A stretch of DNA of 64,000 nucleotides. It comes from Vogesella urethralis. GTDB taxonomy: Bacteria > Pseudomonadota > Gammaproteobacteria > Burkholderiales > Chromobacteriaceae. Under the pieces are notes generated by a model that saw only the letters and a program-made list of their open reading frames with translations, searched no databases and was not told the origin of the DNA. The stretch spans positions 1 through 64,000 of the forward strand of contig NZ_VMDW02000057.1 in NCBI RefSeq assembly GCF_007644045.2. The letters run 5' to 3'. The position numbers were made by a program, and so were the translations under genes. Of this stretch, positions 9,298 to 63,724 are shown one piece after another. Positions within the stretch are counted from its first letter, which is position 1; every line of letters begins with the position of its first letter.

Positions 9298-9921
9298 ATG
9301 ACCATGGATTTTCACAACTGGATGATGTACCTGGGCACCATCGTGCTCTTGATGCTGGCGCCGGGCCCCGGCCCGCTGCTGACCCTGTCGCACGGCGCAC
9401 AACACGGTGCCCGCGGCGGCATTCCCAATGCGCTGGGCTTTTCTGCCGGCGCGCTTACCCTGATGGCGCTATCGGCGCTGGGCATCAGCGCCCTGCTGTT
9501 CGCGTCGCCTACCGCGTTCAATATCGTCAAGATGTTGGGCGCCGGCTACCTGGTGTGGCTGGGTGTCACACTGTGGCGCAAGCCGTTCAGCCTGCAAGAT
9601 GGTAGCGGCCAAAGCAGCACCCGGCTGTGGAGCGGCTTCCGCCCGGCCTTCCTGCTGGCCGTCAGCAACCCGGAAGACACCGTGTTCTTCTCGGCGCTGC
9701 TGCCACGCTTTCTCGACCCGGCGCGCGAGCTGTGGCCGCAGTACCTGACGATGGCCGCAACCTGGGTGGTGGCCGACATGGTCATCGCCGTGATGTTGGC
9801 CGCCGCCGGTGGCCGCCTCGGTGGCTGGCTGGCACACGGCCAGCGCCTGCAGCGCTTTTCGCGCACCTCGGGCGGCCTGTTCGTGCTGGCCGGCGTGATG
9901 CTGGCCGCCGTACAGCGCTGA
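9298..9921 (+). CDS. LysE/RhtB family amino acid exporter
   Basis: This inner membrane protein (207 residues) belongs to the LysE/RhtB exporters, which expel amino acids such as threonine, homoserine or leucine. The hallmark APGPGPLLTLSHG near residue 20 lies in the first membrane segment, followed by GFSAGAL, the GAGYLVWLGVTLWR segment and the conserved SNPEDTVFFSALLP that in the family usually reads NPKA-FF. About six hydrophobic segments are visible and length is normal for the family. Of the possible starts, ATG at 9298 gives MTMDFHNW and normal length; the in-frame region upstream is Pro/Arg-rich and unlike a membrane protein start. The substrate cannot be told. It is a single gene, bounded by the island junction and a convergent VOC gene. 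Confidence 0.88.
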   Translation: MTMDFHNWMMYLGTIVLLMLAPGPGPLLTLSHGAQHGARGGIPNALGFSAGALTLMALSALGISALLFASPTAFNIVKMLGAGYLVWLGVTLWRKPFSLQDGSGQSSTRLWSGFRPAFLLAVSNPEDTVFFSALLPRFLDPARELWPQYLTMAATWVVADMVIAVMLAAAGGRLGGWLAHGQRLQRFSRTSGGLFVLAGVMLAAVQR

Positions 9922-9947
9922 TCGCGGCACTGCGGCCAACTTGCAGT

Positions 9948-9977
9948 AAAAAAAATGCCCCCGCGCTGGCGGGGGCA
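9948..9977 (-). terminator. Terminator after the VOC gene
   Basis: TGCCCCCGC and GCGGGGGCA form a 9-base stem with a 4-base loop. Eight A residues at 9948-9955 give a T tract on the minus strand, so it ends the minus-strand VOC transcript and may also stop read-through from the exporter gene. Confidence 0.85.
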
Positions 9978-10075
9978 AACACAGTCAAGTTCGCTCGCTG
10001 TCGTGTCTGGGTGACATACAGGTAAAGCTGGGAGCACCGCAGGCGGAACTTGGTTCCCGCCGCACCGGCTTTTTG

Positions 10076-10450
10076 TCAGGCCACTGGGTAGACGCTGACC
10101 TCGATCAGGTTCTGGTCCGGATCGAGGAAATACACCGACTGGATCGCGCCTTGCGCACCGGTCTTGGCCACCGGCCCTTCGACAATCTCCACGCCCTCGG
10201 CCTGCAGATGGGCCACCACCTGCGACAGTGGCCAGTGCGTAATCAGGCATAAATCGCCTGACCCCACCCCAGCACGGTTGCGTGGCTCCTGCCCAAGCAG
10301 CTGCAAATTGATCTTCTGCTGGCCAAAGTGCAATGCGCGGCGGCCGTTGGCAAAGGTCACCGCCTCCATCAGCAATACTCGGCTGTAAAAAGCAACCGAT
10401 GCTTCGATATCGGTAACAGTCAGTACCACGTGGTCGATATGGCTGATCAT
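10076..10450 (-). CDS. VOC-family (glyoxalase-like) protein
   Basis: The 124-residue protein has the vicinal oxygen chelate fold of glyoxalase I, dioxygenases and fosfomycin-resistance enzymes. Visible features are the metal-ligand histidine in HIDHVVLTVTD at the N-terminus, SVAFYSRVL, the second half motif SVYFLDPDQNLIEVSVY with the C-terminal glutamate ligand, and length typical of single-module VOC proteins. ATG at 10450 is chosen because GGAG lies six bases before it; the upstream ATG at 10465 lacks a site. The substrate cannot be inferred. It is monocistronic, with a strong terminator downstream. Confidence 0.82.
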   Translation of the reverse strand: MISHIDHVVLTVTDIEASVAFYSRVLLMEAVTFANGRRALHFGQQKINLQLLGQEPRNRAGVGSGDLCLITHWPLSQVVAHLQAEGVEIVEGPVAKTGAQGAIQSVYFLDPDQNLIEVSVYPVA

Positions 10451-11533: not shown

Positions 11534-11542
11534 GGCATACCG

Positions 11543-14105: not shown

Positions 14106-14135
14106 TGCGGCCAACCTTGCCCGGCGTTGGCCGCA
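14106..14135. repeat. Inverted pair of the GTTGGCCGC motif after prlC
   Basis: TGCGGCCAAC (14106-14115) and GTTGGCCGCA (14126-14135) are perfect 10-base inverted copies separated by 10 bases, 9 bases after the prlC stop. Together they form a stable hairpin. Inverted pairs of DNA uptake sequences placed just after genes, where they double as transcript ends, are a known habit in Neisseria and Haemophilus. No T run follows. Confidence 0.8.
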
Positions 14136-14143
14136 GCAGCGCG

Positions 14144-16186
14144 TCAGGCAGCCACGGGCGTGCTCATGCCGCTATGGCGCAGCAGCGCGTCGATCTGCGG
14201 GTCGCGGCCGCGGAAAGCACGGAACGATTCCAGTGCCGGGCGGCTACCGCCCACTGCCAGCACTTCGTCCCAGAACTTGTAGCCCACCGCCGGGTTGGCG
14301 CCGCCGGCTTCCTCGAAGGCGGCGTAGGCATCAGCCGACAGCACTTCTGCCCACTTGTAGCTGTAGTAGCCCGCAGCGTAACCGCCGGCAAAGATGTGGC
14401 TGAAGCTGTTGGGGAAGCGGTTGTACGCCGGCGGGCGGTTGACCGCCACTTCGTCGCGCACCTGCTCCAGCAAGGCCAGCCAGTCGATGCTGTCGGGGTT
14501 GGCCGCGCTGTACAGCAGCATGTCGAACAGCGAGAACTCCAGCTGGCGCACAGTCTGCATGCCGCTCTGGAAGTTCTTGGCGGCCAGCATCTTGTCGTAC
14601 AGCGCGCGCGGCAGCGGCTCGCCGCTATCCACGTGGGCGCTCATGCCTTGCAGCACGTCCCATTCCCAGCAGAAGTTCTCCATGAACTGGCTGGGCAGTT
14701 CCACCGCGTCCCACTCCACGCCGCTGATGCCGGATACGCCCAGCTCGTCCACGCGCGTCAGCAAATGGTGCAGACCGTGGCCGAATTCGTGGAACAGCGT
14801 GGTCACTTCGTCGTGGCTGAAGGTGGCCGGCTTGTCGCCCACCGGGCGGGTGAAGTTGCACACCAGGTAGGCTACCGGCGTCTGCACCTGGCCCCCTTTT
14901 ACGCGACGGCCGCGCACGTCGTCCATCCAGGCGCCGGGGCGCTTGCCGTCACGGGCGTACAGGTCGAGGTAGAAACCGCCCAGCAGCGCGCCGTCCTTGT
15001 GGATCTGGTAGTAGCGCACGTCCGGGTGCCAGGTTTCGGCGTCGCGGGCTGCTACGCTGATGCCGTACAGCTTGTGTACCACGCTGAACAGGCCGGCCAG
15101 CACCTTGTGCTCGGGGAAGTACTGTTTCACTTCATGCTCGGAGAACGCATAGCGCGCCACGCGCAGTTTTTCGGCGGCGTAGCTGATGTCCCACGCTTCC
15201 AGCGTGTCCAGGCCTAGCTCGGTGCGGGCGAAGGCTTCCAGCTCGGCGCGATCCTGCTGCGCGTAAGGCTTGGCGCGGGCGGCCAGGTCGCGCAGGAAGT
15301 CGATCACCTGTTGCGGGCTTTCGGCCATCTTGGTGTACAGCGACAGCTCGGCGTAGTTGGCAAAGCCCAGCAGCTGCGCCTCTTCGGCGGCCAGCACCAG
15401 GCGCTCGCGGATCAGCGCGGTGTTGTCCTGCTCGGCCGGGCCGAACTCGCTGGCGCGCTTGGCGTTGGCTTCGTACAGTTGCTGGCGCAGCGCGCGGTTG
15501 TCGGCGTACTGCAGCACCGGGAACAGCACCGGGAACTGCAGGCCCAGCTTGTACTTGCCCGGCTGGCCGTCGGCCTCGGCCATGGCGGCGTACAGCGCCA
15601 GCGTGTCTTCCGGGATGCCGGCCAGCTCGGCCGCATCATCGATATACAGGCTGAAGCTGTCGGTAGCGTCCATCACGTTTTGCGAGAACTGGCTGGACAG
15701 CTCGGCCAGGCGGCTGGACAGCTCGGCAAAGCGCGCTTTCTGGGCGTCCGGCAGCTCGGCGCCAGACAGGCGGAAGTCGCGCAGGTCGTTGTCGATGATC
15801 TTCTTGCGCGCAGCGCTGGCGTTGGCAAAGGCCGGGTTGGCCGCCACCGCCTTGAAGCGCGCGTATAGGTCGAGGTTTTGCCCCAGCTCGGTAAAGAAGG
15901 CGGAAATGCGCGGAATTTCGGCGTTGTACACCTCGCGCAGGCCTTCGGTATTGCCCATCACGCTATTGAGGTGGCCCACCACGCCCCAGGCGCGCGACAG
16001 GCGCTCGGTGGCGTCGGACAGCGGCTCGGATACCGAGTCCCAGTCGTCGCCGCCGGCGGCGATCACCTGCGCTACCGCAGCGCGCGCTTCGGCCAGCAGC
16101 ACGTCCAGCGCCGGGGTAACGTGTTCGGGTTTGATCGCGGCAAAGCGCGGCAGATCGCTAAAGTCCAGTAGCGGATTGGTGGTCAT
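14144..16186 (-). CDS. prlC: Oligopeptidase A (M3 metallopeptidase)
   Basis: This 680-residue cytoplasmic zinc peptidase degrades short peptides, including cleaved signal peptides. The length and N-terminus (NPLLDFSDLPRF, IKPEHVTPAL) are typical of PrlC/OpdA. The zinc site is LFHEFGHGLHHLL (HExxH near residue 467), followed by the family sequence ending in PSQFMENFCWE where the glutamate is the third ligand. ATG at 16186 (MTTNPLL) is preferred because AGGA lies eight bases upstream; the alternative ATG at 16195 overlaps that site. The gene is divergent from the gamma carbonic anhydrase gene with only 69 bases between starts, so promoters overlap. An inverted repeat pair and a terminator follow. 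Confidence 0.95.
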   Translation of the reverse strand: MTTNPLLDFSDLPRFAAIKPEHVTPALDVLLAEARAAVAQVIAAGGDDWDSVSEPLSDATERLSRAWGVVGHLNSVMGNTEGLREVYNAEIPRISAFFTELGQNLDLYARFKAVAANPAFANASAARKKIIDNDLRDFRLSGAELPDAQKARFAELSSRLAELSSQFSQNVMDATDSFSLYIDDAAELAGIPEDTLALYAAMAEADGQPGKYKLGLQFPVLFPVLQYADNRALRQQLYEANAKRASEFGPAEQDNTALIRERLVLAAEEAQLLGFANYAELSLYTKMAESPQQVIDFLRDLAARAKPYAQQDRAELEAFARTELGLDTLEAWDISYAAEKLRVARYAFSEHEVKQYFPEHKVLAGLFSVVHKLYGISVAARDAETWHPDVRYYQIHKDGALLGGFYLDLYARDGKRPGAWMDDVRGRRVKGGQVQTPVAYLVCNFTRPVGDKPATFSHDEVTTLFHEFGHGLHHLLTRVDELGVSGISGVEWDAVELPSQFMENFCWEWDVLQGMSAHVDSGEPLPRALYDKMLAAKNFQSGMQTVRQLEFSLFDMLLYSAANPDSIDWLALLEQVRDEVAVNRPPAYNRFPNSFSHIFAGGYAAGYYSYKWAEVLSADAYAAFEEAGGANPAVGYKFWDEVLAVGGSRPALESFRAFRGRDPQIDALLRHSGMSTPVAA

Positions 16187-16255: not shown

Positions 16256-16813
16256 GTGAATCGCAATATCCGTTCCTACGACGGGCACCGCCCGCAAATC
16301 GACCCCAGCTGCTATATCGACGACGCCGCCGTGGTGATCGGCGAGGTAGCGCTGGCGGCCAACGTGTCGGTGTGGCCGTGTGCGGTGGTACGCGGCGACG
16401 TCAACCGCATCAGCATCGGCGAAGGCAGCAATGTGCAGGATTTTGCCATGCTACACGTTAGCCATCGCAAGGAAAGCGACCCGGAAGGCGCGCCGCTGAT
16501 CATCGGCCGCCACGTCACCATCGGCCACCACGTCACGCTGCACGGCTGCACCATCGGCGACGAAGTACTGATCGGCATCGGCAGCATCATCCTGGACCGC
16601 GCCGTCATCGAAGACCGCGTGCTGATCGGTGCTGGCAGCCTGGTACCGCCCAACAAGCGCCTGGAAAGCGGCTACCTGTACCTGGGCAACCCGGTCAAAC
16701 AAGTACGCCCGCTCACCGACGGCGAACTGGCCTACTTCAAGTATTCGGCCGAGCACTACGTGAAGGTAATGGACAAGCACAAGGCAAGCGCCGCCGCCGA
16801 CGCAGCGCTGTAA
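16256..16813 (+). CDS. yrdA: Gamma-class carbonic anhydrase-like protein YrdA
   Basis: The 185-residue protein is a left-handed beta-helix of hexapeptide repeats (VVIGEVALAANVSVWPCAV, IGEGSNVQDFAMLH, VTIGHHVTLHGCTIGDEV, IGIGSIILDRAVI). Metal-ligand histidines are visible in MLHVSH and IGHHVTLHG, as in Cam/CamH and YrdA trimers; whether it has carbonic anhydrase activity in vivo is not known for most YrdA proteins. The GTG start at 16256 has AAGGA seven bases upstream, and upstream in-frame residues are not conserved-looking. It is cytoplasmic and monocistronic, followed by a terminator hairpin. Confidence 0.92.
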   Translation: MNRNIRSYDGHRPQIDPSCYIDDAAVVIGEVALAANVSVWPCAVVRGDVNRISIGEGSNVQDFAMLHVSHRKESDPEGAPLIIGRHVTIGHHVTLHGCTIGDEVLIGIGSIILDRAVIEDRVLIGAGSLVPPNKRLESGYLYLGNPVKQVRPLTDGELAYFKYSAEHYVKVMDKHKASAAADAAL

Positions 16814-16876: not shown

Positions 16877-16991
16877 GCCAAACGGATAGACTCCGCCTTG
16901 GTTACAAGCCTGCGTCATTCAGGTTAAGTGTCATCTGCCAGTAACGTTGGCCGCCTACACTGCGCCCAGCTTTAATAAGGATGGATTTAAA

Positions 16992-18644
16992 ATGACGCTG
17001 GTCAAACGCTTGTGGCTTACGGTAATCCTCACCCTCGCCTGCCTGCTGGCGGTGATGCTGTTGAGCAGCCAGCAGCTGTGGTCGCTGCGCGCCGACTTCG
17101 AGCAATACCGCAGCCGGCAGCTGCTGTCGGCCAACCTGCAAACCTTGAAAGCCGACGTGCTGTCGCTGTCGCGCGCCGACCCGCTGCTGCCCGATACCGC
17201 CAGCCGCCTGGCCGCCGTCAACGGCAGCAGCCGCCAGCTGATTGCCGCCATCGTGGCCGCCCTGCCCGCCGCCGAGCGCGACAGCTTCGGCAAGCAGGCC
17301 AGCCAGCACTGGCAGGCCTACCACCAGAACCTGCAATCGGCGATCAAGATTGCCGAGACCTCGCCGGAAGACGCGCTGTCCATCCCCGAAGAAGCCTACA
17401 AAATGAGCCTGCAGCCGCTGGCCGGGCTGATCGACCAGCGCCTGGCGTCCGAACGCCAGCTGCTGGCGCAAGCCGAAACCGCCATGCAGGCCGCGCTGGG
17501 GCGGCTGGTGCTGCTGGTACTGGGCCCGCTGGGCCTGGCCAGTGCCATCGTGGTGCTGTCGCAAGTACTGTTGGCACGACGCCTGAAACAGCAGATTGCC
17601 GCCATGCAGCGCGCTGCCGACCAGCTGGGTGAAGGCGAACTGGCGGTACGGCTGCCGGTAGCCGGCGCCGACGAGCTGTCGCAAGCCGCCCGCCACATCA
17701 ACCGCTTCCTCGACCAGCTGGCCACGCTGCTGGGCACCGTGCGCCGCACCGCCGCCGACAGCGAACGCGAAGCGCGCGGCATTCTGGCGCTGACCGGCCA
17801 GGTGATCCAGGTTACCCAGCAGCAGGCCGACAAGGCCGAAAACACCCGCACCGCCGCCGGGCAGATTGCCGACAGCAACCAGCGCATCAGCCAGGCACTG
17901 CAGCGGGCGATGCAGGACGCCGACCACGGCAGCGAGCGCACCGGCCACGCGCGCGGGCTGGCGACCGCCACAGCGCACACGCTACAGAACCTGTCCGGCC
18001 GCCTGCGCGGCGCCGTCAACGACGCCGAGCAACTGAAAACCGCCATCCGCGACATTGCGCAGATCAGCACGCTGATCCGCGACGTGGCAGAGCAAACCAA
18101 CCTGCTGGCGCTGAACGCCGCCATCGAAGCTGCCCGTGCCGGCGAGCAAGGGCGCGGCTTTGCCGTGGTGGCCGACGAGGTACGAAAGCTGTCGGAGCGC
18201 ACCGAAAACGCCACCGCCCGCATCTTCGACACCCTGCTGCGGGTAGAGTCGGCCAGCCAGGCGTTGGCCGCCACCATGGAAGAAGCCCACCAGGCGGGCG
18301 AGCACAGCATCGGCGCGCAAGAAACGCTTAACCAGGCGCTGCTGCAGGCCGACGACGCCATGGCCGCCTTCCGCCTGGCCATGCGCGACATCGAAGACGC
18401 GCGCCAGGCGCAGCACGCCGCCAGCGACAATATCGTTGGCCACGGCGACGAAGTGGCGGCCATGGCGGCCAGCATCTTCGGCCAGATGCAGACGCTGGCA
18501 CCGGCCATGAGCCGGCTGACCGACGCCTCGCAACAGCTGAACCGCGACCTGGCCTGGTTCCGCACCCAGCCGCAAACCAAGGTTGGCCGCACCCCGCCCC
18601 CGGCCTTGCCCGGTGCCGGTGATGTACTGCCGTCGGCAGCCTGA
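16992..18644 (+). CDS. Methyl-accepting chemotaxis protein
   Basis: The 550-residue chemoreceptor has an N-terminal membrane helix (about 8-28), a helical periplasmic sensing region (about 30-165, Gln/Ala/Arg-rich, resembling a four-helix bundle), a second membrane helix ([20 protein letters not shown]), a HAMP domain and the signalling domain. The highly conserved tip [20 protein letters not shown] is near residue 360, and [10 protein letters not shown] follows, so it can contact CheA and CheW. ATG at 16992 has AAGGA ten bases upstream. The ligand is unknown. It stands alone, not in a chemotaxis operon, as most receptors do. The 12-mer AAGGTTGGCCGC lies near its 3' end, read as KVGR. Confidence 0.93.
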
Positions 18645-19221: not shown

Positions 19222-19324
19222 TGCAGGGTTCCTTTGGATAACAACAGTGGGTAATGCGCTGAGTGTGAGGCATGGCGGCGAAAATTCAACCCCGTTGCTA
19301 ACAGGGTTGGCCGCCAGTGCCGCC

Positions 19325-19726
19325 TCAGGGCTGGCCTTCGTCCGGTAGCGACAACCCCAGCTCGGCCAGCACCTCGCGTGCGGCGCGGAACGCTTCTACC
19401 GCCGCCGGCGCGCCGGCGTAGACCGCGCAGTGCAACAGCGTTTCGCGGATTTCCACCAAGCTGGCGCCGTTGTTGATGGCGCCGCGGATATGGCCTTTCA
19501 GCTCCTGGCTACGCCCCAGCGCGGCCAACATGGCACAGGTCAGCAGGCTGCGGGTTTTCAGGTCGATACCGTCGCGCTGCCAGGTGCTGCCCCAGGCGTG
19601 CTCGTTCAGCCAGTCTTGTAGCGGGCGGCTGAAACCATCCAGACCGCTCATCGCCCGCGTGGCAAACGCCTCGCCCATCACTTGCGTGCGCCGCGCCAGC
19701 CCGGCCTGTTTGTCTTGTTCGCTCAT
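19325..19726 (-). CDS. Carboxymuconolactone decarboxylase family protein (PcaC-like)
   Basis: The 133-residue protein follows the pattern of 4-carboxymuconolactone decarboxylase: [43 protein letters not shown], and [23 protein letters not shown]. True PcaC enzymes of the protocatechuate pathway have this size and sequence order. No other protocatechuate genes are nearby, so a role in aromatic degradation is uncertain, and related small proteins serve as antioxidant or unknown enzymes. AGGAG lies seven bases before the ATG. The gene reads in the same direction as tpx, 100 bases upstream of it, and follows the EamA gene by 23 bases, so it may share a transcript with the latter. Confidence 0.85.
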
Positions 19727-30638: not shown

Positions 30639-30708
30639 TCAGGCGCAAACAGCCGCCAAGGTTGGCCGCAGCCGCTTGCGCCTCACACCTCAGTAAGGTA
30701 TGTCAAAC

Positions 30709-34833: not shown

Positions 34834-35439
<606 letters not shown>

Positions 35440-48297: not shown

Positions 48298-48346
48298 TGC
48301 GGCCAACCTTGCTCCACAACCCTTCGGCGGCCACGGTTGGCCGCAT
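48297..48346. repeat. Inverted pair of the repeat at the msrQ start
   Basis: ATGCGGCCAACC (48297-48308) and GGTTGGCCGCAT (48335-48346) are perfect 12-base inverted copies 26 bases apart, and the first includes the msrQ start codon. They can fold the beginning of the msrQ message into a hairpin. This is one of two close inverted pairs of the window-wide repeat. Confidence 0.85.
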
Positions 48347-53723: not shown

Positions 53724-54848
53724 ATGATGCCTGGAGAAACAAGACGTTTCGATAGAAACCGCCTTCAACAGCTGTTCAGCAGCTGGCTCCCCTCCTCCCG
53801 CCACTCCATGCTGGGGCTGGATATCAGTTCCACTGCCATCAAGATGGTCGAACTCAGCCGCCACGGCCGCACGCCGCAGCTGGAACGCTACGTGGTGGAG
53901 CCGCTGGCCAAAGACCTGATTACCGAAGGCAACATCAACAATATGGACGAGGTGGCCGACGCCATCCGTCGCGCCTGGCACCGCATGGGCTCGCCGACAA
54001 AACGGGCTGCGATTGCCCTGCCAACCTCCATGGCCATCTACAAGAAGATCCTGGTCCCGGCTGGCGCACTGGGCGATGACCTTGAGCTGCAGGTAGAAAG
54101 CGAAGCCAATCAGTACATACCGTTCCCGCTGGAAGAAGTAAACCTGGATTATCAGGTACTGGGGCCGGCAAGCAACAGCGCAGACGATCTGGACGTGATG
54201 ATCTGCGCGTCGCGCAAAGAAAAAGTGGAAGAACGCGTAGCAGTCGCGGAAATGGCAGGCCTGAAGGTGGAGATCGTCGATATCGACGCCTTTGCCATGC
54301 TGACGGCGTTCGAACAGATCCAGCAGCAACTGCCCGACCAAGGCATGAACCAGACCTTTGCCCTGTTCGATATCGGCGCCAGCAAGATCCACTGCTCGGT
54401 CATCCGCAACAACCAGCAACTGTACTACCGTGAGCAGGTATTCGGCGGGGTACAACTGACGCGCGATATCCAGCGCCGCTATGGCTATACCTACGAAGAA
54501 GCCGAAGCCGGCAAGCGCAGCATGTCGCTACCGGACGGCTACGAGGCAGAGCTGTTGTACCCGTTTGTCGATTCGCTGGCGCAAGAAATCCAGCGTGCAC
54601 TGCAGTTTTTCTACACCACGGTCAGTGTGTCGCAATACCTGCGTGTGGACTACATCCTGCTGGCCGGGGGATGCAGCATGTTGTCCGGCCTGGACGATGC
54701 CATCCTCAACCGTACCCAGATCAGCACCATGATTGCCAACCCGTTCACGACCATGACCCAGGCACCCGGCATCCAGCTCAAGGAGCTGCTACTGGATGCA
54801 CCGTCATTGCTGGTGGCCTGCGGCCTGGCTTTGCGGAGATTTGACTAA
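53724..54848 (+). CDS. pilM: Type IV pilus inner membrane platform protein PilM
   Basis: PilM (374 residues) is an actin-like cytoplasmic ATPase that links the pilus alignment complex to PilN. The core starts LGLDISSTAIKMVELSR after a longer N-terminus, and continues with PTSMAIYKKI, FDIGASKIHCSV and LLAGGCSMLSGLDDA, all typical of the FtsA-like fold. ATG at 53724 or the next ATG at 53727 starts it, because an in-frame stop TAG is only 16 bases upstream; AAGGAGG at 53685 is too far away to be used, so the true binding site is weak. It is the first gene of pilMNOPQ. Confidence 0.95.
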   Translation: MMPGETRRFDRNRLQQLFSSWLPSSRHSMLGLDISSTAIKMVELSRHGRTPQLERYVVEPLAKDLITEGNINNMDEVADAIRRAWHRMGSPTKRAAIALPTSMAIYKKILVPAGALGDDLELQVESEANQYIPFPLEEVNLDYQVLGPASNSADDLDVMICASRKEKVEERVAVAEMAGLKVEIVDIDAFAMLTAFEQIQQQLPDQGMNQTFALFDIGASKIHCSVIRNNQQLYYREQVFGGVQLTRDIQRRYGYTYEEAEAGKRSMSLPDGYEAELLYPFVDSLAQEIQRALQFFYTTVSVSQYLRVDYILLAGGCSMLSGLDDAILNRTQISTMIANPFTTMTQAPGIQLKELLLDAPSLLVACGLALRRFD

Positions 54849-55424
54849 ATGATCCGCATCAACCTGCTACCGCACCGCGAACAGAAAAAGGCAGCGCACC
54901 GGAAACGCTTCCAGACCCTGATGCTGGCCAGCCTGCTGGTAGCCATCGGCCTGACCTACCTGTGTTACTTGCAGCTAGAGGACGCCAAGGCAAGCCAACT
55001 GGCGCGCAACCAGCGGCTGGATGAAGAGATCGGCAAGATCAACGCCAAACTCAGCAATATCGAGTCGCTACGCCAGAAAAAAGCCGAGTTGCTGGCGCGC
55101 AAACAGCTGGTGGAACGCCTGCAGTACGATCGTACCCAGGCTGTGTACATTTTTGACGAGCTGATCCGCCTGATGCCGGAAGGCGTGTTTCTGAAGGACT
55201 TCCGCCAGACAGGCAGTAACATCGCCCTTAGCGGCGTCGCCCTGTCCAGTGCCCGTGTATCGCTGCTGATGCGCAGCTTGGCAGAATCGAATACTTTCGC
55301 CGACCCGGTGCTGATCGAAGTCAGCGCCACCAACGTCGACAAGATCCGTGCCAACCAGTTCAGCCTGAGCGTAACACTGAAGGCACAACATGCCGCCGCA
55401 CCGCCGCAAGGAGCCGCCAAATGA
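54849..55424 (+). CDS. pilN: Type IV pilus assembly protein PilN
   Basis: PilN (191 residues) is a bitopic inner membrane protein of the alignment subcomplex. It begins with the conserved PilM-binding INLLPHREQKK, then a membrane helix (TLMLASLLVAIGLTYLCYL), a coiled coil (QLARNQRLDEEIGKINAKLSNIESLRQKK) and a periplasmic ferredoxin-like domain. It abuts pilM and overlaps pilO by four bases. Confidence 0.96.
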   Translation: MIRINLLPHREQKKAAHRKRFQTLMLASLLVAIGLTYLCYLQLEDAKASQLARNQRLDEEIGKINAKLSNIESLRQKKAELLARKQLVERLQYDRTQAVYIFDELIRLMPEGVFLKDFRQTGSNIALSGVALSSARVSLLMRSLAESNTFADPVLIEVSATNVDKIRANQFSLSVTLKAQHAAAPPQGAAK

Positions 55425-56026
55425 CCCTGGACGAATTGCGCACCCTTGACTTCAAGGACATGCCCAACTGGCCGCTGCAAGGCCAGTTGGCCGCCCTGCT
55501 CGTGATGATCCTGATGGTACTGGGGGCAGCTTACCTGCTTGTGTTTTCGTCCATACAGGATGAAATTGCCCAGGCCAAACTGAAAGAAGAAGAGCTGCGG
55601 CAGACCTTCGTCGACAAGAAGCGTCAGGCCAGCAACCTGGCTGCACTGGAAAACCAGCTCAAACAGATCGAAACCTCGTTTGGCACGCTGCTCAAGCAAT
55701 TGCCCAGCAAGTCGGAAATGGACGCGCTGCTGACCGAAATCAACCAGGCCGGCATCGGCCGCGGTTTGCAGTTCGAGTTGTTTCGCCCGGCCACCGAAGT
55801 CAAAACCGACCAGATGGCCGAGATGCCGATCCAGATTCGCCTGACCGGCACCTATAACGAACTGGCAGCCTTTGCGACCGACGTTTCCCAGCTGTCGCGC
55901 ATCGTCACCATCGGCGACATCTCGCTGACACCCGCCGATGCCAAAAACAGCCGCCTGGTGATGATGGCCACGGCCAAGACCTACCGCGCGCTGGAAGCGG
56001 AAGAGAAAGTCGCCGCACCGAAATGA
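55421..56026 (+). CDS. pilO: Type IV pilus assembly protein PilO
   Basis: PilO (201 residues) pairs with PilN to bridge the inner membrane platform and PilP. A short cytoplasmic part (TLDFKDMPNWPLQGQ) precedes a membrane helix (LAALLVMILMVLGAAYLLVF), a coiled coil (AQAKLKEEELRQTFVDKKRQ) and a globular periplasmic domain with IQIRLTGTYNELAAFATDVS. It overlaps pilN and pilP by four bases each. Confidence 0.96.
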   Translation: MTLDELRTLDFKDMPNWPLQGQLAALLVMILMVLGAAYLLVFSSIQDEIAQAKLKEEELRQTFVDKKRQASNLAALENQLKQIETSFGTLLKQLPSKSEMDALLTEINQAGIGRGLQFELFRPATEVKTDQMAEMPIQIRLTGTYNELAAFATDVSQLSRIVTIGDISLTPADAKNSRLVMMATAKTYRALEAEEKVAAPK

Positions 56027-56556
56027 GCACAATCACGATGTCTAGACTGTTTCCTGTCTTGCTACTGCTGCTGTCAGCCTGCAGCCTGACCGAGCAGGAC
56101 GACCTGGAGCAATGGATGCAGCAGGCCGGTAGCGGCCTGCATGGTCAGGTCGAGCCATTGCCCCAGATCGAGCCCTACAAGCCCTACCAGTACCGTGGTC
56201 AGGACCTGGTCTCGCCATTCGACACCAACCGTCTGCAACTGGCACGCAAGAATGCCAGCAGCAACCTGCCTGACACCGGTCGCCCACGGGAAATACTGGA
56301 AAACTACGAACTGGACAAACTGAAGCTGGTGGGCACCATGCTGCTGCAAAAAGAACGCATCGGGCTGATCCAGACGCCGGAAGGGGGAATCTACCGGGTA
56401 CGCATCGGTAGCTTTATCGGCCCGAATTACGGCATTGTGCGTGCTGTCAGCGAAACCGAAATCAAACTGGAAGAAACTGTCGAAGATGTAAACGGCGAGT
56501 GGGTAAAGCAGGATAACAACCTCTACCTGCTTCAGGAACAAGGAAAAGCACCATGA
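56023..56556 (+). CDS. pilP: Type IV pilus lipoprotein PilP
   Basis: PilP (177 residues) is an inner membrane lipoprotein that connects PilNO to the secretin. The signal ends with LLLLLSAC. The mature protein has an unstructured Pro/Gln linker (PLPQIEPYKPYQYRGQDLVSPF) and a beta-domain (DKLKLVGTMLLQKERIGLIQTPEGGIYRVR). Four-base overlaps on both sides show tight coupling. Confidence 0.95.
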   Translation: MSTITMSRLFPVLLLLLSACSLTEQDDLEQWMQQAGSGLHGQVEPLPQIEPYKPYQYRGQDLVSPFDTNRLQLARKNASSNLPDTGRPREILENYELDKLKLVGTMLLQKERIGLIQTPEGGIYRVRIGSFIGPNYGIVRAVSETEIKLEETVEDVNGEWVKQDNNLYLLQEQGKAP

Positions 56557-58691
56557 AAACAATGACCCTGACGCAGCTGGCCGCCGCCCTTACCCTTGCC
56601 GGCCTTTCCGGCCTGGCCATTGCGGCCAACAGCATTACCCAGATCGAACTGCTCAAGAATGCCCAGGAACAGCAAGTGCTGGCGGTGACCTTCAGCAACC
56701 CGCTGCCCGTCTCGCCCAACAGCTTTGCCATTTCCAATCCGCCACGGGTGGCATTCGACTTTCCCGATACCCGCAACCAGACCGGAAAGACCCAGCTGCC
56801 CTTTGCCGCCAGCCTGCTCAACGCCGCCACGGTGGTAGAAGGCCAGGGCAAGGCACGCCTGGTACTGAACCTGAACAAATCGACTGCCTATACCAGCAAA
56901 CTGGAAGATAACAAGCTGCTGATCACGCTGAATGCCCCTGGCAGTGCCAGCCAGCCAGTCAGCGCGCCTGCCAGCCGCATCCAGGAAGCACCAACCGAAA
57001 TCCTGCCACCGGTCTTTGCTGCGGCACCGAATGCCATTGCGCCGAATGGCGTGGTCCAGAACGTGGACTTCAAACGCGGCGACAACGGCGAAGCTCGGGT
57101 ACTGATCGACCTCAACAGTGCCAGCACGCCAGTCGATATCAAGCGGGAAGGCAAGAACGTCGTGATCGACCTGGCAGGCGTCAAAGTGCCACGACATCTG
57201 GAACGCCGCTTGGACGTGACCGATTTTGCCACCCCTACCCGCCGCATTGATGCCACGAATCAGGGTGCGGGCAGCCGCATCGTGCTGCAATCCGAGGGCG
57301 ATTGGGCCTACTCCTCCTACCAGACCGACAAGCGCCTGGTGGTGGAGGTACGCAAAATATCGGCCGAAGAAGTGGAAGCCGCACTGCAAGCGCAGGGCAA
57401 AGCCAGCTACAAGGGAGAGAAGCTGTCGCTCAACTTCCAGAACGTCGAAGTTCGCTCCTTGCTGCAGGTAATTGCCGAATTTACCGGCATGAACATCATC
57501 ACCAGCGACTCGGTCAACGGTACGCTGACCCTGCGGCTGAAAGACGTGCCTTGGGATCAGGCACTGGACCTGATCCTGGCCCAGAAGAACCTGGAAAAGC
57601 GCCAGGTGGGTAACGTGGTGCGCATTGCGCCACGCGACGAATTGCTGGCGATCGAACGTCAGGCTGCCGAGTCGCAGAAGCAACGCGTCAATGCCGAGCC
57701 CATCATTACGGAAACCTTCCAGATCAAATACCGGGCGGCAGAAGAGATCCGCGAAGCACTCAAAGACCTGGCCGGCTTCTACAGCGAGAACGTCACCACC
57801 AGCCAGGGCAGCAGCAGCACGGGTACCAAAGCCGCTATTCTGGTCGACCCGCGCTCCAACAAGATCATCATCCGTGAGCGGGTGTCCGTCATTGAAGAAA
57901 TCCGCAAGGTGATCCAGACGCTGGATACCCCGCTGCGCCAGGTACTGATCGAAGCGCGCATTGTCGAGGCCAAGGACAACTTCCAGAAAGACTTGGGCGT
58001 ACGCCTGCAAGTTACCAAGGTAGGCGGGGACACCTCGGTCGGCAATCTGTCCAACGGCGGCAGCATACCCATCGGCCAATTGCCGTCTGGTGATGTCACA
58101 TTCAACCCAAACGTCAGCCTGCCTGCTTCGCTGAGCGGTGCCTCGATTGCAGCTGTATTCAAGGGGGCCAGCAGCATCATCGGGCTAGAGTTATCAGCCA
58201 TGCAGGCAGAAGACCGTGGCAAGGTCGTCTCCAGCCCGCGCATCCTGACTGCCGACCGTACCAAAGCCACCATTACCGAAGGTACCGAGATTCCGTATCA
58301 AACCACGGATAAAGACGGCAACTCGTCGACAACCTTCAAAAAGGCCAACCTGACCTTGGCCGTAACGCCGCAGGTAACGCCGGAAAACGACGTCGTCCTC
58401 AAGCTGAACATTACCAAGGACACGCCGAACACCAAGCTGAAAGTGGGCGAAAATCCTGCCATTGACAACAAGACCGTCGACACTGAGGTTCGGGTCGAAA
58501 ATGGCGGTACCGTGGTCATTGGCGGCATTTACGTGCAAGAACAAAACACGGTAGAGAACCGCGTGCCCTTGCTGGGCGACCTGCCAGTAGTCGGCGCCTT
58601 GTTCCGCAACAATTCCAATACCAACAACCGTCGCGAACTGCTGGTTTTCATCACGCCGCGCATCGTGGAGAATGAGTTCATTCCCCGCTGA
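56553..58691 (+). CDS. pilQ: Type IV pilus secretin PilQ
   Basis: PilQ (712 residues) forms the outer membrane channel for pili and for incoming DNA during natural transformation. After a signal peptide (MKTMTLTQLAAALTLAGLSGLAIAA) come two AMIN domains (about 30-120 and 165-265), an N0-type domain with SLNFQNVEVRSLLQVIAEFTG, a secretin N1 repeat and the secretin core ending in VPLLGDLPVVGALFRN. The final gate and beta-barrel follow LIEARIVEAKDNFQKDLG. It has one copy of the repeat core (56622). Confidence 0.97.
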   Translation: MKTMTLTQLAAALTLAGLSGLAIAANSITQIELLKNAQEQQVLAVTFSNPLPVSPNSFAISNPPRVAFDFPDTRNQTGKTQLPFAASLLNAATVVEGQGKARLVLNLNKSTAYTSKLEDNKLLITLNAPGSASQPVSAPASRIQEAPTEILPPVFAAAPNAIAPNGVVQNVDFKRGDNGEARVLIDLNSASTPVDIKREGKNVVIDLAGVKVPRHLERRLDVTDFATPTRRIDATNQGAGSRIVLQSEGDWAYSSYQTDKRLVVEVRKISAEEVEAALQAQGKASYKGEKLSLNFQNVEVRSLLQVIAEFTGMNIITSDSVNGTLTLRLKDVPWDQALDLILAQKNLEKRQVGNVVRIAPRDELLAIERQAAESQKQRVNAEPIITETFQIKYRAAEEIREALKDLAGFYSENVTTSQGSSSTGTKAAILVDPRSNKIIIRERVSVIEEIRKVIQTLDTPLRQVLIEARIVEAKDNFQKDLGVRLQVTKVGGDTSVGNLSNGGSIPIGQLPSGDVTFNPNVSLPASLSGASIAAVFKGASSIIGLELSAMQAEDRGKVVSSPRILTADRTKATITEGTEIPYQTTDKDGNSSTTFKKANLTLAVTPQVTPENDVVLKLNITKDTPNTKLKVGENPAIDNKTVDTEVRVENGGTVVIGGIYVQEQNTVENRVPLLGDLPVVGALFRNNSNTNNRRELLVFITPRIVENEFIPR

Positions 58692-58706: not shown

Positions 58707-59276
58707 ATGAAGTCATCCGATACAATGCCTGCCATGGAACTGGCAGGCAATTTTTTTCTGGTGGGCCTGATGGGCTCGGGCAAGACCACGGTTGGCCGCA
58801 CGCTGGCAAAGCATACCGGCAAGACGTTTTATGATTCCGACCACGAAATCGAGCGTCGTACCGGGGTACGCATCACCACGATCTTCGACATCGAAGGCGA
58901 GCCACGCTTTCGCGAGCGAGAGCGCGATACCATCGCCGAGCTGTGCCAGATGCAGGGCATCGTTCTGGCCACCGGTGGCGGTGCCATCCTGGCACCGGAA
59001 AACCGCCAGGCGCTACGCAAGCACGGTACAGTCATCTACCTGCGCGCCCAGATCGACGACATCCTGGCGCGCACCCAGCACGACAAAAGCCGGCCACTGT
59101 TACAAACCGCCGACCCGCGCAGCAAGCTGGAAGAACTGTTCGCCATCCGCGATCCGCTCTATCGCGAGGTCGCCGACATCGTCATCGACACCACGCACCA
59201 GAACGTCAATGTGCTGGTCCACCGCCTGGAGCAGCGATTGCTGAGCCACCAAAGCAAGCACCCTGTCAAACCATGA
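58707..59276 (+). CDS. aroK: Shikimate kinase
   Basis: AroK (189 residues) phosphorylates shikimate in aromatic amino acid synthesis. The P-loop [17 protein letters not shown] is near residue 20, followed by [32 protein letters not shown] with the shikimate-binding DxD and GGGAIL. A later ATG (MELAGNFF, 58734) would suit the usual length; the first is listed. A 10-mer repeat copy (GGTTGGCCGC, 58790) overlaps the P-loop codons. It overlaps aroB by four bases and follows the pil operon by 15 bases. Confidence 0.95.
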
Positions 59277-60358
59277 TCACGCTCAACCTTACCCTGCCCG
59301 ACACCAGCTACCCCATCTACATCGGCGAACACTTGCTACCGCAAGCCGAGCTGCTATTGCCACACCTGAAGCAGAAAAAAGTGATGATCGTGACCAATAC
59401 CACGGTCGCACCGCTGTATCTGGAAACCTTGCGTCGTGGCCTGCAACAGCACGGCGTCAGCGTACTGAGCGTGACCCTGCCAGATGGCGAAGATTTCAAG
59501 ACCTGGGAAACGCTGAACCTGATCTTTGATGCACTGCTGGCCAACAAGTGCGAGCGCGGCACCACGCTGATCGCGCTAGGGGGTGGCGTCATCGGCGACA
59601 TGGTGGGGTTTGCCGCCGCCAGCTACCAGCGGGGTGTGCCGTTCATTCAGGTTCCCACCACGCTGCTGTCGCAGGTGGACTCCTCGGTAGGCGGCAAAAC
59701 CGCCATCAACCACCCGCTGGGCAAAAACATGATCGGCGCGTTCTACCAGCCCAAAGCGGTGCTGGCCGACATGACGCTGCTGGATACGCTGCCCGAGCGC
59801 GAGCTATCGGCCGGTCTGGCGGAAGTGATCAAATACGGCCTGCTGGGTGATGCCAGTTTTATCGACTGGCTGGAACAGAATATGGGCGCGCTGCGCGCCA
59901 AGAACAAAACCGTACTGGCCGAGGCCGTACGCCGCTGCTGTGCCATGAAAGCCGACATCGTGTCGCAAGACGAGCGTGAAAGCGGCATCCGCGCCCTGCT
60001 GAACCTGGGCCACACGTTTGGCCACGCCATCGAAGCCGGACTGGGCTTTGGTACTTGGCTGCATGGCGAAGCAGTGGCTGCGGGCATGATGCTGGCGGCG
60101 GAAGCCTCGCGGCTGCTGGGCTACCTCAGCGAAGACGAGGTTGGCCGCATCGAACGCCTGCTGCATGCTGCCGGCTTGCCGACGGTCAGTCCCGACCTTG
60201 GCGAGGCCGTCTGGCTGGAACACATGAGCCATGACAAAAAAGTGAGCGACGGCACCATCCGCTTTGTGCTGATGCAGCAATTAGGTCATGCCATTGTCGC
60301 AACGCTACCCGCAGCGGTGCTCAGCGCCACGCTCAACAGCCGCTTCGTGGCGAAGTAA
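59273..60358 (+). CDS. aroB: 3-dehydroquinate synthase
   Basis: AroB (361 residues) makes dehydroquinate from DAHP with NAD and a metal. The NAD-binding [19 protein letters not shown], the [21 protein letters not shown] motif, metal-ligand residues in EVIKYGLL and [11 protein letters not shown] are all present. ATG overlaps the aroK stop (ATGA), which fixes the start at 59273. The pilMNOPQ-aroK-aroB cluster is a well-known layout of this lineage. A copy of the repeat lies near the 3' end (60139, GGTTGGCCGCAT). Confidence 0.97.
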
Positions 60359-60829: not shown

Positions 60830-61255
60830 TCACGGCCAAACCCGGCATTGCCATGTTCCGCCCTCCGGTACGCAATGGCGCATGATGCCGGTAGACAACA
60901 GTTCGATGTAGCCCTCCTCCGGCGTACTCGCCGTCGCCCGCAGTACGTAGTAATCGGGATCGGTATTGCGCGGCGTACTGCCGAATGCCAGTGTGTAACT
61001 GGGTTGCGTGCTGGCAGGGTAATAAACGTACGGCAAGGCTGGCCACTGGGTGGCTGACAGTTTGTAGCTGCCCCTCTCACTATAAAAGCGCTCCAGCACC
61101 GCTGCATTTTCCTGCAGCAGGGCAGCCACCGCGGCGCGCTCGGCTTGATGCAAACTGGCCCGGTATTCTTGCACCGCCAGACTGGTGATGATGGCCACCA
61201 AAGTCAGTACCACCACCATTTCCAGCAACGTGAAACCTTGCCGAGCTAGGTGCAC
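60830..61255 (-). CDS. PilE-like minor type IV prepilin
   Basis: The 141-residue prepilin has a short leader and class III cleavage site HLARQG|FTLLEMVVVL with the required E5, a hydrophobic N-terminal helix, the QENAAVLERFYSERGSY segment typical of PilE-type minor pilins, and a C-terminal disulfide loop between HCVPEGGTWQC. Minor pilins prime pilus assembly; in Neisseria the minor pilin ComP is the receptor for the DNA uptake sequence. This protein could be a ComP analogue or a PilE/PilX homologue; the sequence alone does not decide. It overlaps fimT by ten bases and is cotranscribed with it. Confidence 0.85.
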   Translation of the reverse strand: MHLARQGFTLLEMVVVLTLVAIITSLAVQEYRASLHQAERAAVAALLQENAAVLERFYSERGSYKLSATQWPALPYVYYPASTQPSYTLAFGSTPRNTDPDYYVLRATASTPEEGYIELLSTGIMRHCVPEGGTWQCRVWP

Positions 61256-61776
61256 GGTAGCACCTGTCGGCTGCCACTACCGAATAGCCGTAACTCCCGG
61301 CAGTACCCTTCCGCATTTCTCGCCGTATACCGTACCAACGGTACCGATAGCATGCCACTAGGCGTGATCCGGTACTGTAAGACATTGCTGTGCAGCGTCA
61401 CCGCCGATTGAGGCAACACCACGTCGCGTGCCTCCTTGCTGTCGTAACTGGCCACGCGGCCAGCAGGACTGTCGATGAAAAACAGCACGCCCTCTGCTGC
61501 CTGATAATGCCCACCTGAGGCCCTGGCAGGCAGACAACCTTGCACATCGAGATTGCGCTTCAGATTGGCCAGGCACACCTGCACGCTTTGGCTACGGGTA
61601 ATAGCTTCGCTACGCATGCGCATGATCGCCGTCGCGACACGGGATAACTGCCCATCAACCGCCTGCCGGGCCATGAACTGGCGGTAGCCATCCAGATTCC
61701 AAAGCAGCACCATTGCGATGATGGCGAGTACCACCAGCAACTCCAGCAGTCCGGCTCCACAGCTACGTAATGACAT
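61246..61776 (-). CDS. fimT: FimT/GspH-type minor prepilin
   Basis: The 176-residue prepilin begins SLRSCG|AGLLELLVVLAIIAM, with G7 cleaved and E12 at +5, then a GspH-like beta-domain with cysteines in SVQVCLANLKRN, VQGCLPAR, EGYCREL and VLPCT. FimT proteins are minor pilins of the transformation pilus, and FimT of Legionella binds DNA with its C-terminal tail. ATG at 61776 with GGGAG six bases upstream is chosen. The C-terminus here is FGSGSRQVLPCT, with one arginine, so whether it binds DNA is open. It is the first gene of the two-pilin unit. Confidence 0.85.
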   Translation of the reverse strand: MSLRSCGAGLLELLVVLAIIAMVLLWNLDGYRQFMARQAVDGQLSRVATAIMRMRSEAITRSQSVQVCLANLKRNLDVQGCLPARASGGHYQAAEGVLFFIDSPAGRVASYDSKEARDVVLPQSAVTLHSNVLQYRITPSGMLSVPLVRYTARNAEGYCRELRLFGSGSRQVLPCT

Positions 61777-61924
61777 GACAGACTCCCGATCACCATCGAC
61801 CAAGCATGCACTCGGCATGACCATGGGAGCTTAGGAACATTCGTTGTCACATGTCAAACAGGCAAATTCAGCTGAAAATCCAGCCTAAAAGCAGCCCCAT
61901 CCATTGATAGTAAAAGATTAAAAG

Positions 61925-61951
61925 CAATAAAAAACCGCCCTATCGGGCGGT
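61925..61951 (-). terminator. Terminator after msbA
   Basis: ACCGCCC and GGGCGGT form a 7-base stem around TATC, with AATAAAAA before it on the plus strand giving a T tract on the minus strand. Confidence 0.85.
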
Positions 61952-61975
61952 GTGTCTGTTGCCACAAGCCAACCG

Positions 61976-63724
61976 TCAGCCTTCGGCAAACTGCATGCTG
62001 TGCAATTTGGCGTACATGCCGTTTTCAGCCAATAGCGACTGGTGCGTCCCTACCTCGATGACTTCACCCTGGTGCATCACCACAATACGATCAGCCTGCT
62101 CGATGGTAGACAGACGATGCGCAATCACCAGCGTGGTCCGGTTTTTCATCAGGTTATCCAGCGCGGCCTGCACCAGACGCTCGGACTCGGTGTCCAGCGC
62201 CGATGTCGCTTCATCCAGAATCAGCAGCGGCGCGTTTTTCAGCAGCGCACGGGCAATAGCCAGGCGCTGGCGCTGGCCGCCCGACAGACGGGTACCGTTT
62301 TCGCCGATTTCGGTATCGAAGCCTTCCGGTAGCGCCTCGATGAAGTCCAGCGCGTTGGCCGCGCGCGCGGCCTCGACGATCTGCTCGCGGCCAACCTTGT
62401 CCAGCACACCATACGCAATGTTGGCCGCCACGGTGCCATTGAACAGCACCACGTCCTGGCTGACCAAGGCAATCTGCTCGCGCAACGCAGGCAGCGCGTA
62501 GTCAGCCAGTGGTACGCCATCCAGCAGTAAACGGCCACTGTCGGGCTCGTAGAAGCGCGGCACCAGGCTGGCCAGCGTGGTCTTGCCGGAGCCGGAGGAA
62601 CCCACCAGTGCCACCGTTTCACCCGCGTTCAGCGTCAGGCTAATCTGCTTGAGCGCCGGCCGCTCGCTGCCAGGGTAGCTGAATGACAGCTGCTGCAACT
62701 CGAGCTGGCCGCGCGTCTTGCCGGCCAAAGGCAAGCCGGCCTGCTTTTCTTCCGGCTCATCCAGAAACTGGAAAATGGTTTCTGCCGCCGCCAAACCGCG
62801 TTGCAGCGCCTGCGAGATGCCGGTGATGCGCTTGATCGGCGCAAACAGCAGCATCATGGCGGTGAGGAAGGACATGAAATCGCCAGCACTGAAACCGCCA
62901 TGCTGCGCACGCAGCGCGGCAAAGTACAGGATGGCGGCCAACGCACAGGCAATCATCAGCTGGGTCACGCCGGTGTTGGCGGAGCTGGCCGCACTCTGCT
63001 TGACCTGGTTACGGCGCAACGCATCCGCCGCCTCATGAAAACGCTCGGCTTCGTACTGCTCGCCACCGTAAATCTTCACCACTTTACGGCCATCGATAGC
63101 CTCGCTGACTACCTGCACCATCTGCCCCATGCGCAGCTGGTTCTCGCGGGCCAGACCACGCAAACGCTTGCCGACAAAGTGCATGCAGGCGGTGACCGCG
63201 GGCATGACGACGAAACAGATCAGCGTCAGCTGCCAGTCGGTGTACAGCAGCAGCGCCAGCAGGCCCAGCGTGGTCACGCCATCCTTGACCGCCACGGTAA
63301 TCACATTGAAACCGGCTTCGGTAACCTGATTGACGTCGCTCGCAATACGCGAAATCAGCCGGCCCGACTGCTCGCGATCATAAAAGCTCACCGGCAAGCG
63401 TAGCAGCTTGACGAACATCTCTTCGCGCAGGGTTTGCACCAGACGGCCGGTCAGCCAGCTGGCCGTATATTCGTTGATAAAGCTGGTCACGCCACGCAGC
63501 AGGAACACGCCGATAATCGCCAGCGGCACCCAGCGGATGGTTGCCGGGTCCTTGTCGACAAAGCCGCCGTCGATCAACGGCTTGAGCAAACGGGCAAACG
63601 CCGCTTCGGTTAGCGCGGCGATACACATCGAGACCAGCGACAGGCTCAGTACCTTCCAGTAGCGCTGGATGTAACGCAGCAGGCGGCGGTAAACCTGCCA
63701 GCTGTGCTTGAAGGAATCGTTCAT
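61976..63724 (-). CDS. msbA: Lipid A export ABC transporter MsbA
   Basis: MsbA (582 residues) flips lipid A-core across the inner membrane. It has an ABC exporter membrane domain with six helices (VLSLSLVSMCIAALTEAAFARLLK, with LASFYDREQSGRLISR-like coupling sequence) and an ATPase domain with Walker A GSSGSGKTTLAS near 375, LSGGQRQRLAIARALLKN near 478 and Walker B LLILDEATSALDTES. The start MNDSFKHSWQVYRRLLRYI is typical of MsbA. It overlaps the glycosyltransferase stop by four bases (ATGA), so they are cotranscribed. Confidence 0.96.
   Translation of the reverse strand: MNDSFKHSWQVYRRLLRYIQRYWKVLSLSLVSMCIAALTEAAFARLLKPLIDGGFVDKDPATIRWVPLAIIGVFLLRGVTSFINEYTASWLTGRLVQTLREEMFVKLLRLPVSFYDREQSGRLISRIASDVNQVTEAGFNVITVAVKDGVTTLGLLALLLYTDWQLTLICFVVMPAVTACMHFVGKRLRGLARENQLRMGQMVQVVSEAIDGRKVVKIYGGEQYEAERFHEAADALRRNQVKQSAASSANTGVTQLMIACALAAILYFAALRAQHGGFSAGDFMSFLTAMMLLFAPIKRITGISQALQRGLAAAETIFQFLDEPEEKQAGLPLAGKTRGQLELQQLSFSYPGSERPALKQISLTLNAGETVALVGSSGSGKTTLASLVPRFYEPDSGRLLLDGVPLADYALPALREQIALVSQDVVLFNGTVAANIAYGVLDKVGREQIVEAARAANALDFIEALPEGFDTEIGENGTRLSGGQRQRLAIARALLKNAPLLILDEATSALDTESERLVQAALDNLMKNRTTLVIAHRLSTIEQADRIVVMHQGEVIEVGTHQSLLAENGMYAKLHSMQFAEG

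Follow-up and report, generated by a model that had tools for sequence, protein, structure and literature searches.

A dispersed motif and a comP ortholog in a Vogesella window

The window, by which we mean the whole 64-kb stretch of Vogesella urethralis DNA analyzed here, contains a short motif (consensus AAGGTTGGCCGCA, core GTTGGCCGC) scattered over both strands and a gene for a minor type IV pilin related to ComP of Neisseria; from the data below we conclude that the motif is, with high probability, a DNA uptake sequence (DUS) of Vogesella that is read by ComP. The comP ortholog (60830..61255, minus strand; 141 residues, GTG start), the proposed receptor for the motif, was assigned by Pfam, PDB match, profile, and tree. 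It is adjoined by a gene for a FimT/GspH-like minor pilin (61246..61824, minus strand; Pfam GspH, PF12019), and type IV pilus assembly genes, with PilM and the secretin PilQ recognized by Pfam, lie at 53724..58691 (plus strand); the three frames between PilM and PilQ are, going by the usual operon order, presumably pilN, pilO, and pilP.

Exact counts on both strands give 55 copies of the 9-mer GTTGGCCGC (25 plus, 30 minus), 28 of the 10-mer GGTTGGCCGC (15 plus, 13 minus), and 11 of the 12-mer AAGGTTGGCCGC (4 plus, 7 minus) in the window, for which dinucleotide shuffling predicts 0.53 copies of the 10-mer and 0.02 of the 12-mer. An earlier, sequence-only reading of the same DNA had given 54, 27, and 11 copies, so its 12-mer count stands and the other two are each short by one; its span of 9795..62942 matches the start of the first copy and the end of the last, and the even strand distribution that it described is found both here and, for the 10-mer, across the genome (see below). 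By our own gene model, 45 of the 55 copies of GTTGGCCGC lie wholly within a predicted gene.

Close neighbors on opposite strands occur at three places rather than as the two inverted pairs previously noted: a pair formed by a 12-mer at 14107..14118 (minus) and a 9-mer at 14126..14134 (plus), a pair formed by a 12-mer at 48299..48310 (minus) and a 10-mer at 48335..48344 (plus), and a triple in which a 12-mer at 62387..62398 (minus) stands between 9-mers at 62354..62362 and 62420..62428 (both plus). The remaining 12-mers lie at 18579..18590, 30658..30669, 35424..35435, and 39607..39618 on the plus strand and at 20189..20200, 25194..25205, 25485..25496, and 28451..28462 on the minus strand. Copies that extend to the 10-mer are found at 14497..14506, 15835..15844, 19305..19314, 32905..32914, 37589..37598, 38577..38586, 44366..44375, 49756..49765, 58790..58799, and 60139..60148 (plus) and at 22779..22788, 27404..27413, 32329..32338, 42394..42403, 48893..48902, and 50012..50021 (minus), and those that match the 9-mer at 9795..9803, 16946..16954, 18263..18271, 36621..36629, 42747..42755, 45622..45630, and 55486..55494 (plus) and at 9932..9940, 16355..16363, 19521..19529, 22297..22305, 26202..26210, 26733..26741, 28646..28654, 32761..32769, 38105..38113, 40678..40686, 42957..42965, 43638..43646, 45481..45489, 50423..50431, 50595..50603, 56622..56630, and 62934..62942 (minus).

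The first part of the window (1..9794) is a low-GC region (53%) that carries GmrSD-type and HsdR-type restriction genes and a phage-type integrase, as judged by Pfam, and holds no copy of GTTGGCCGC. The presence of restriction genes, together with the GGCC contained in the motif, might suggest a restriction-modification or methylation site. We consider this highly improbable: the restriction genes lie within the very region that lacks the motif, restriction leads to avoidance of a site, yet the motif is the commonest 9-mer of the genome sample described below, and a non-palindromic 12-mer with graded flanks is unlike the usual methylase site.

Genome-wide abundance of the motif

Throughout the source genome (4.03 Mb in 157 contigs), GGTTGGCCGC occurs 1,867 times (931 plus, 936 minus), as compared with 17 times (9 plus, 8 minus) for the reversed word; the enrichment is thus genome-wide and not confined to the window. 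A sample of 861 kb, composed of the window and 797 kb in 40 further stretches, was characterized with our own gene model (733 genes, 86% coding). Here, GTTGGCCGC tops all 9-mers with 773 copies, the median of its 1,260 permutations being 17, and the consensus proves to be one base longer than the 12-mer, namely AAGGTTGGCCGCA, with almost no conservation beyond these 13 bases.

The core density of about one copy per 1.1 kb would also suit a genome-wide site for a chromosome-organizing or DNA-processing protein (nucleoid, segregation, or similar to Chi or the FtsK-orienting polar sequences, KOPS) with no part in uptake, and the sequence by itself leaves room for a different binding protein. No significant strand imbalance is seen in any of seven stretches of 60–260 kb (largest, 58 versus 40; p = 0.085), and this balance argues against Chi and KOPS, as the sequence-only reading had held. 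The dialects of sister genera, the hairpins after genes, and the restriction to a single family, all described below, fit a DUS and would be unexpected for Chi or KOPS, and one dialect resembles known DUS; a chromosomal site of this kind is therefore improbable in our view.

Copies that are not wholly inside a predicted gene make up 24% of the 9-mers, 30% of the 10-mers, and 36% of the 12-mers, whereas non-gene bases make up 14% of the sample, so the motif is enriched outside genes. Copies inside genes occupy all six frames, and in each frame the codons of the motif exceed what codon usage predicts, from 1.4-fold (WP frame) through 19-fold (VGR) to 81-fold (RP, 32 sites). At AAN sites, GCG GCC AAC is used in 211 of 248 cases (expectation, 31), and six synonymous control spellings are found at 0.2–0.6 of expectation, in part because the motif occupies their sites; TTG accounts for 10% of the Leu codons in the sampled genes. 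This frame-by-frame test rules out protein conservation or codon use as the cause of the abundance, in keeping with the earlier claim, made from the differing frames of the window copies, that protein conservation does not explain the motif.

Eighteen convergent pairs of 10-mers are spaced by no more than 60 bases, and 17 of them lie outside predicted genes. A facing stop codon is found 5–45 bases away for 14 of the 18, which bears out the expectation of inverted pairs after genes; for the other four, the stop is at 88 bases, the stop is at 524 bases, a contig edge intervenes, or the pair lies inside a gene. Such pairs, some of them flanked by A and T runs, could in principle be remnants of a dispersed repeat or a terminator element. 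Set against this, there are just 18 pairs among 417 copies of the 10-mer, 70% of the 10-mers and 76% of the 9-mers are located within predicted genes, and the flanks of the 13-mer are almost unconserved, as a consequence of which we give an origin from dispersed repeats the least credence of all explanations considered.

Within Vogesella, motif sites are conserved at roughly two to three times the rate of an average 9-mer, albeit in small numbers (11/18 versus 32%, 13/18 versus 28%, 6/18 versus 15%, 3/7 versus 16%, and 3/10 versus 11%). Comparison with two Chromobacterium loci revealed no shared sites (0/3 and 0/2).

As a separate observation, GTCTTTCAG is present in 65 copies in the genome sample, where 12.8 would be expected, and words resembling CAGCGTCA are also in excess.

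Dialects of the motif in the Chromobacteriaceae

Vogesella is placed by NCBI taxonomy in the Chromobacteriaceae (hereafter, the family) within the Neisseriales. We surveyed 61 genomes of the family and a sample of 399 genomes drawn from the order, 13 of which are family members. Genera are designated by labels, where g1 is Vogesella, g3 is taken as Chromobacterium, and g7 is taken as Gulbenkiania. Among 10 PilM loci found in named genomes, that of Vogesella aquatica encodes a protein with 95% identity to the window PilM and that of V. oryzae one with 78%, and the named Vogesella loci have the same ComP proteins as g1 genomes. The 10-mer GGTTGGCCGC is abundant in all 13 Vogesella genomes (1,406 to 1,867 copies) and present in 15 to 74 copies in the other 48 genomes of the family; in the order sample, it is high only in the six Vogesella genomes drawn. 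The count over related genera that the sequence-only reading had called for thus shows a genus-wide word, which no other genome of the order sample has in such abundance.

Related words in other genera were first spotted by k-mer counts in sampled stretches. The dialect GTTGGCCGAG, which was counted within the family only, is present in 1,940 and 1,590 copies in the two g5 genomes, while GTTGGCCGAA is abundant in both g6 genomes (579 and 2,168), in the single Gulbenkiania genome (1,245), in the single g9 genome (1,851), in all three g10 genomes (1,104, 183, and 893), and in one of ten g2 genomes, G010 (1,368). Dialects of the form GTTGGCCG-AA or -AG, in 183 to 2,168 copies, are accordingly carried by five genera besides Vogesella and by a single lineage of one more, and 23 of the 61 family genomes are motif-bearing. 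The 38 genomes without such abundance comprise 9 g2, all 19 Chromobacterium, all 4 g4, and all 6 g8 genomes; 40 kb inspected from each of the motif-free g2, g3, g4, and g8 revealed no obvious other uptake-like word. In a second, larger set of stretches, the g2 loci proved to be homologous copies of one another, and the frequent words of Chromobacterium came mostly from a CRISPR-like repeat. Within the order sample, high counts of GTTGGCCGAA are limited to G010 and G038, and the largest count noticed outside the family is 47.

Two side observations concern the motif-free genomes. A slight excess is seen in the g8 genomes G040 and G043 (GTTGGCCGAA, 62 and 45 copies; GTTGGCCGAG, 92 and 85), perhaps a decayed or a young uptake sequence. 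In the g3 genome G018 (stretches L151, L152, L262, and L263), certain 12-mers occur 68 times and jointly resemble a CRISPR repeat array.

The established DUS core GCCGTCTGAA, counted in the same way, served as a positive control. In genus g53, eight of the nine genomes have 1,863 to 4,285 copies and the ninth has 247, with near-equal strands; two other genomes of the same family, f44, hold 2 and 4 copies, and six Vogesella genomes hold 2 to 14. It is on these counts that we take f44 to be the Neisseriaceae. Because the search for GCCGTCTGAA yields similar counts and near-equal strands, the profile of the Vogesella motif is like that of a known DUS.

ComP as the candidate receptor

The pilin encoded at 60830..61255 matches Pfam ComP_DUS (PF16732) with 35.8 bits (cut-off, 27.3), and its best PDB match is 2nba, the ComP of N. 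subflava, which serves as the ComP query in PMC12061091. A profile of nine orthologs matches the ComP structures 2nba, 2m3k, and 5hz7 over the globular domain with E values of 1.4e-20 to 1.2e-18; the same profile gives only 0.075 with PilE, and other pilins match mainly via the N-terminal helix. Orthologs were taken from 45 of the 61 family genomes, that is, from 23/23 motif-bearing and 22/38 motif-free ones. The window pilin has no match, or only weak ones (E above 1e-7), in any of the four g4 genomes.

We built a pilin tree of 43 sequences, namely 18 of the 45 family orthologs, 10 f44 homologs, and 15 further pilins. The family ComPs form one clade (support 97/90), which is joined (100/96) with the f44 ComP and the tandem paralog of the latter. 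The ComPs of the two families do not group to the exclusion of the paralog, but the AU test does not reject such a grouping (p-AU 0.19). PilE-like rows fall outside the ComP group, and only the family of the window pilin joins the Neisseriaceae ComP. Judged by these matches and by its place in the tree, the window pilin classes as an ortholog of Neisseria ComP.

Several further pilins of the same genome match ComP_DUS, and one, on contig C146, does so more strongly than the window pilin, so it might be asked whether the motif is an uptake sequence received by another minor pilin (PilE-like or FimT-like), with the ComP correlation described below a mere product of clade history. That two-cysteine ComPs occur both with and without the motif and that the residue correlation comprises 1–3 independent pairs would fit such a view. 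The C146 pilin behaves as a PilE, however, its best PDB match being 4noa, which is named PilE, with no ComP up to an E value of 1, and in the tree only the family of the window pilin is joined to the Neisseriaceae ComP. We thus rejected the C146 pilin as receptor and hold a receptor other than ComP to be unlikely; ComP is very likely the reader of the motif.

Additional ComP-like frames were seen in three settings. At the f44 loci L232, L233, L238, and L242, comP adjoins a gene for a related second pilin, and three of these neighbors group with ComP in the tree, which suggests a tandem duplication in f44. In the g9 genome G045 (L163, 8642-9636), two ComP-like pilin frames are adjacent, one of them divergent; the second frame, which lacks the lysine discussed below, was excluded from the residue counts. 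Finally, contig C72 of the Vogesella genome itself (L011, 8010-8303) holds, in a cluster of minor pilin genes, a further divergent pilin that resembles ComP_DUS.

Motif-bearing and motif-free orthologs differ at a few positions. Lys or Arg is found at position 65 in 22/23 motif-bearing and 0/22 motif-free orthologs, Thr at position 98 in 20/23 and 0/22, and Lys or Arg at position 96 in 19/23 and 0/22. By alignment, eight of the ten best separating columns fall in the α1-β1 and β1-β2 loops and the other two in the N-terminal helix; these loops, beside the DD region, belong to the DNA-binding surface of ComP according to PMC4906244. The same lysine is present in 10 of the 11 best f44 homologs, the exception being G147, in which no DUS-like word was seen in 80 kb. 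An N-x-D in the loop was also tried as a mark of motif-bearing ComPs (22/23) and was rejected, being present in 5/22 motif-free ones too.

In an f44 genome of about 140 contigs, G224 (L229 1486-1911 and L251-L258), the words AGGCAGCCTGAA, AGGCTGCCTGAA, and AGGCAACCTGAA are abundant, and the best ComP homolog has two cysteines, although in an assembly of this kind a second ComP is possible. Since a two-cysteine ComP here accompanies kingDUS and simDUS words, the DD region may be dispensable in f44 too.

ComEC was found in 59 of the 61 genomes of the family. As a mark of orthology, the linkage of comP to aroB and pilQ proved unhelpful, since it is present at 4/4 Vogesella loci and absent from all 19 loci of other genera.

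Weighing of the uptake interpretation

The suggestion that the motif is a new uptake signal of the Chromobacteriaceae type, put forward by the sequence-only reading, draws support from the genome-wide and genus-wide counts, the inverted pairs, the codon test, and the strand balance. On the model established for Neisseria, ComP minor pilins displayed on the type IV pilus would bind free double-stranded DNA that carries the motif, the pilus would pull the bound DNA in through PilQ, and ComEC would hand one strand inward. DNA of the same genus would thereby be favored in uptake, and biased uptake followed by recombination would spread and maintain the genomic copies; the dialects used by other genera of the family would vary at the two final bases (GTTGGCCG-CA, -AG, and -AA). 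Binding specific to the motif, a bias in uptake, and the role of the window pilin are parts of this scheme that we infer from the genomic pattern and from the orthology of the receptor.

Several observations weigh against this interpretation. ComP alone implies no uptake sequence, because 22 motif-free genomes have orthologs, and Vogesella ComPs are 41%–52% identical to the window ComP despite an identical motif. The correlation of loop residues with the motif rests on three changes in the tree and, with 1–3 independent pairs, is below significance, so it is suggestive and not proof; moreover, the motif-bearing G010 has Thr at position 65. The globular part (after position 60) has exactly two cysteines in all 46 family sequences aligned, whereas the DD region of Neisseria ComP, with four cysteines and two disulfides, is held to bind the DUS (PMC4906244). 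The two genomes in which ComEC was missed, G058 and G059, are motif-bearing Vogesella, the former assembly being 98% complete, in about 330 contigs, and the latter 88% complete. Between Vogesella and Gulbenkiania, none of the sites aligned one way (0/3) or the other (0/2) is conserved, and conserved sites with a switched dialect, sought in these same alignments, were likewise found at 0/3 and 0/2. Lastly, the depletion of the motif in islands that the sequence-only reading had proposed as a check is weak: the absence of copies from the first 9.8 kb of the window has P ∼0.015 after GC scaling, and 5-kb bins with less than 58% GC hold fewer copies, with GC content as a confounder.

Discussion

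We compared the Vogesella 12-mer with seven of the eight DUS dialects (wadDUS was left out) on both strands and with shifts of up to three bases, a comparison that was made after the motif had been seen. The best in-register agreement, with AG-mucDUS or AG-simDUS, is 8 of 12 bases, a value reached by 7.8% of permutations; AT-DUS agrees at 6 of 12. For the sister-genera dialect AGGTTGGCCGAA, the agreement with AG-mucDUS and AG-simDUS rises to 9 of 12 bases (0.9% of permutations are as good), and only its G at +5 and C at +7 are unseen among the seven dialects compared. Because AGGTTGGCCGAA reaches this value, kinship of the motif with the DUS family is likely, although this is not proof. The sequence-only reading, which found no resemblance to the Neisseria family, was right for AT-DUS.

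In Frye et al. (PMC3630211), eight DUS dialects are described with an invariant CTG at +6 to +8, no obvious DUS is reported for Laribacter, Lutiella, Pseudogulbenkiania, and two Chromobacterium genomes, and ComP is stated to be absent from C. violaceum; contrary to that stated absence, we found ComP orthologs in g3, the inferred Chromobacterium. The words of all seven motif-bearing lineages have CCG instead of CTG at the aligned +6 to +8. As the motif falls outside the CTG-core family as defined, the best reading is that it represents a sister dialect group to the Neisseriaceae DUS. A search of the open literature, including passages of PMC3630211 and PMC10715097 (subscription papers being outside its scope), found no report of an uptake sequence in the Chromobacteriaceae, and searches for the 10-mers with uptake or competence returned only papers that, by their titles, are unrelated.

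It is an even bet, in our estimate, that the ComP-DUS system predates the split between Neisseriaceae and Chromobacteriaceae. The ancestor would have had an AGG.....G-type 12-mer and a two-cysteine ComP, and the DD region and CTG core would have arisen later in the Neisseriaceae; Vogesella, Gulbenkiania, and others would have retained the system, with CCG as the core and with dialects of their own, and Chromobacterium and its relatives would have kept ComP and lost the contact-loop residues along with the uptake sequence.

Should the uptake interpretation be true, uptake sequences would be known from a third family, in several dialects and with an altered core, alongside a ComP that has no DD region. 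This would place the origin of sequence-specific transformation earlier, and neither the DD region nor the CTG core would be required for it. Genomes with and without the motif, all with ComP, would form natural pairs for finding the residues that read DNA. The dialects would allow one to predict between which of these bacteria DNA is exchanged and would provide a practical tag for their transformation, and the Neisseria-type self-recognition label for DNA uptake would extend to a neighboring family.

To our knowledge, well-established uptake sequences come from two families, the Neisseriaceae and the Pasteurellaceae. The uptake signal sequence (USS) of the Pasteurellaceae is, like the motif, a short abundant word in competent bacteria, and differs from it in sequence. 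Its receptor is called unknown, with ComN predicted, in PMC12616744. The Neisseriaceae DUS differs from the motif in its host family, in its invariant CTG where the Chromobacteriaceae motif has CCG, together with G at +5, and in its receptor, since the family ComP lacks a DD region and its globular part has two cysteines. The likenesses between the two are a frame of 12 bp, in which a strong core is preceded by two weaker bases on the 5′ side; hundreds to about 2,000 copies on both strands, both genic and intergenic, and hairpins that follow genes; single-base dialects between genera, including A or C at +9, as in kingDUS and king3DUS (PMC3630211); and a ComP ortholog.

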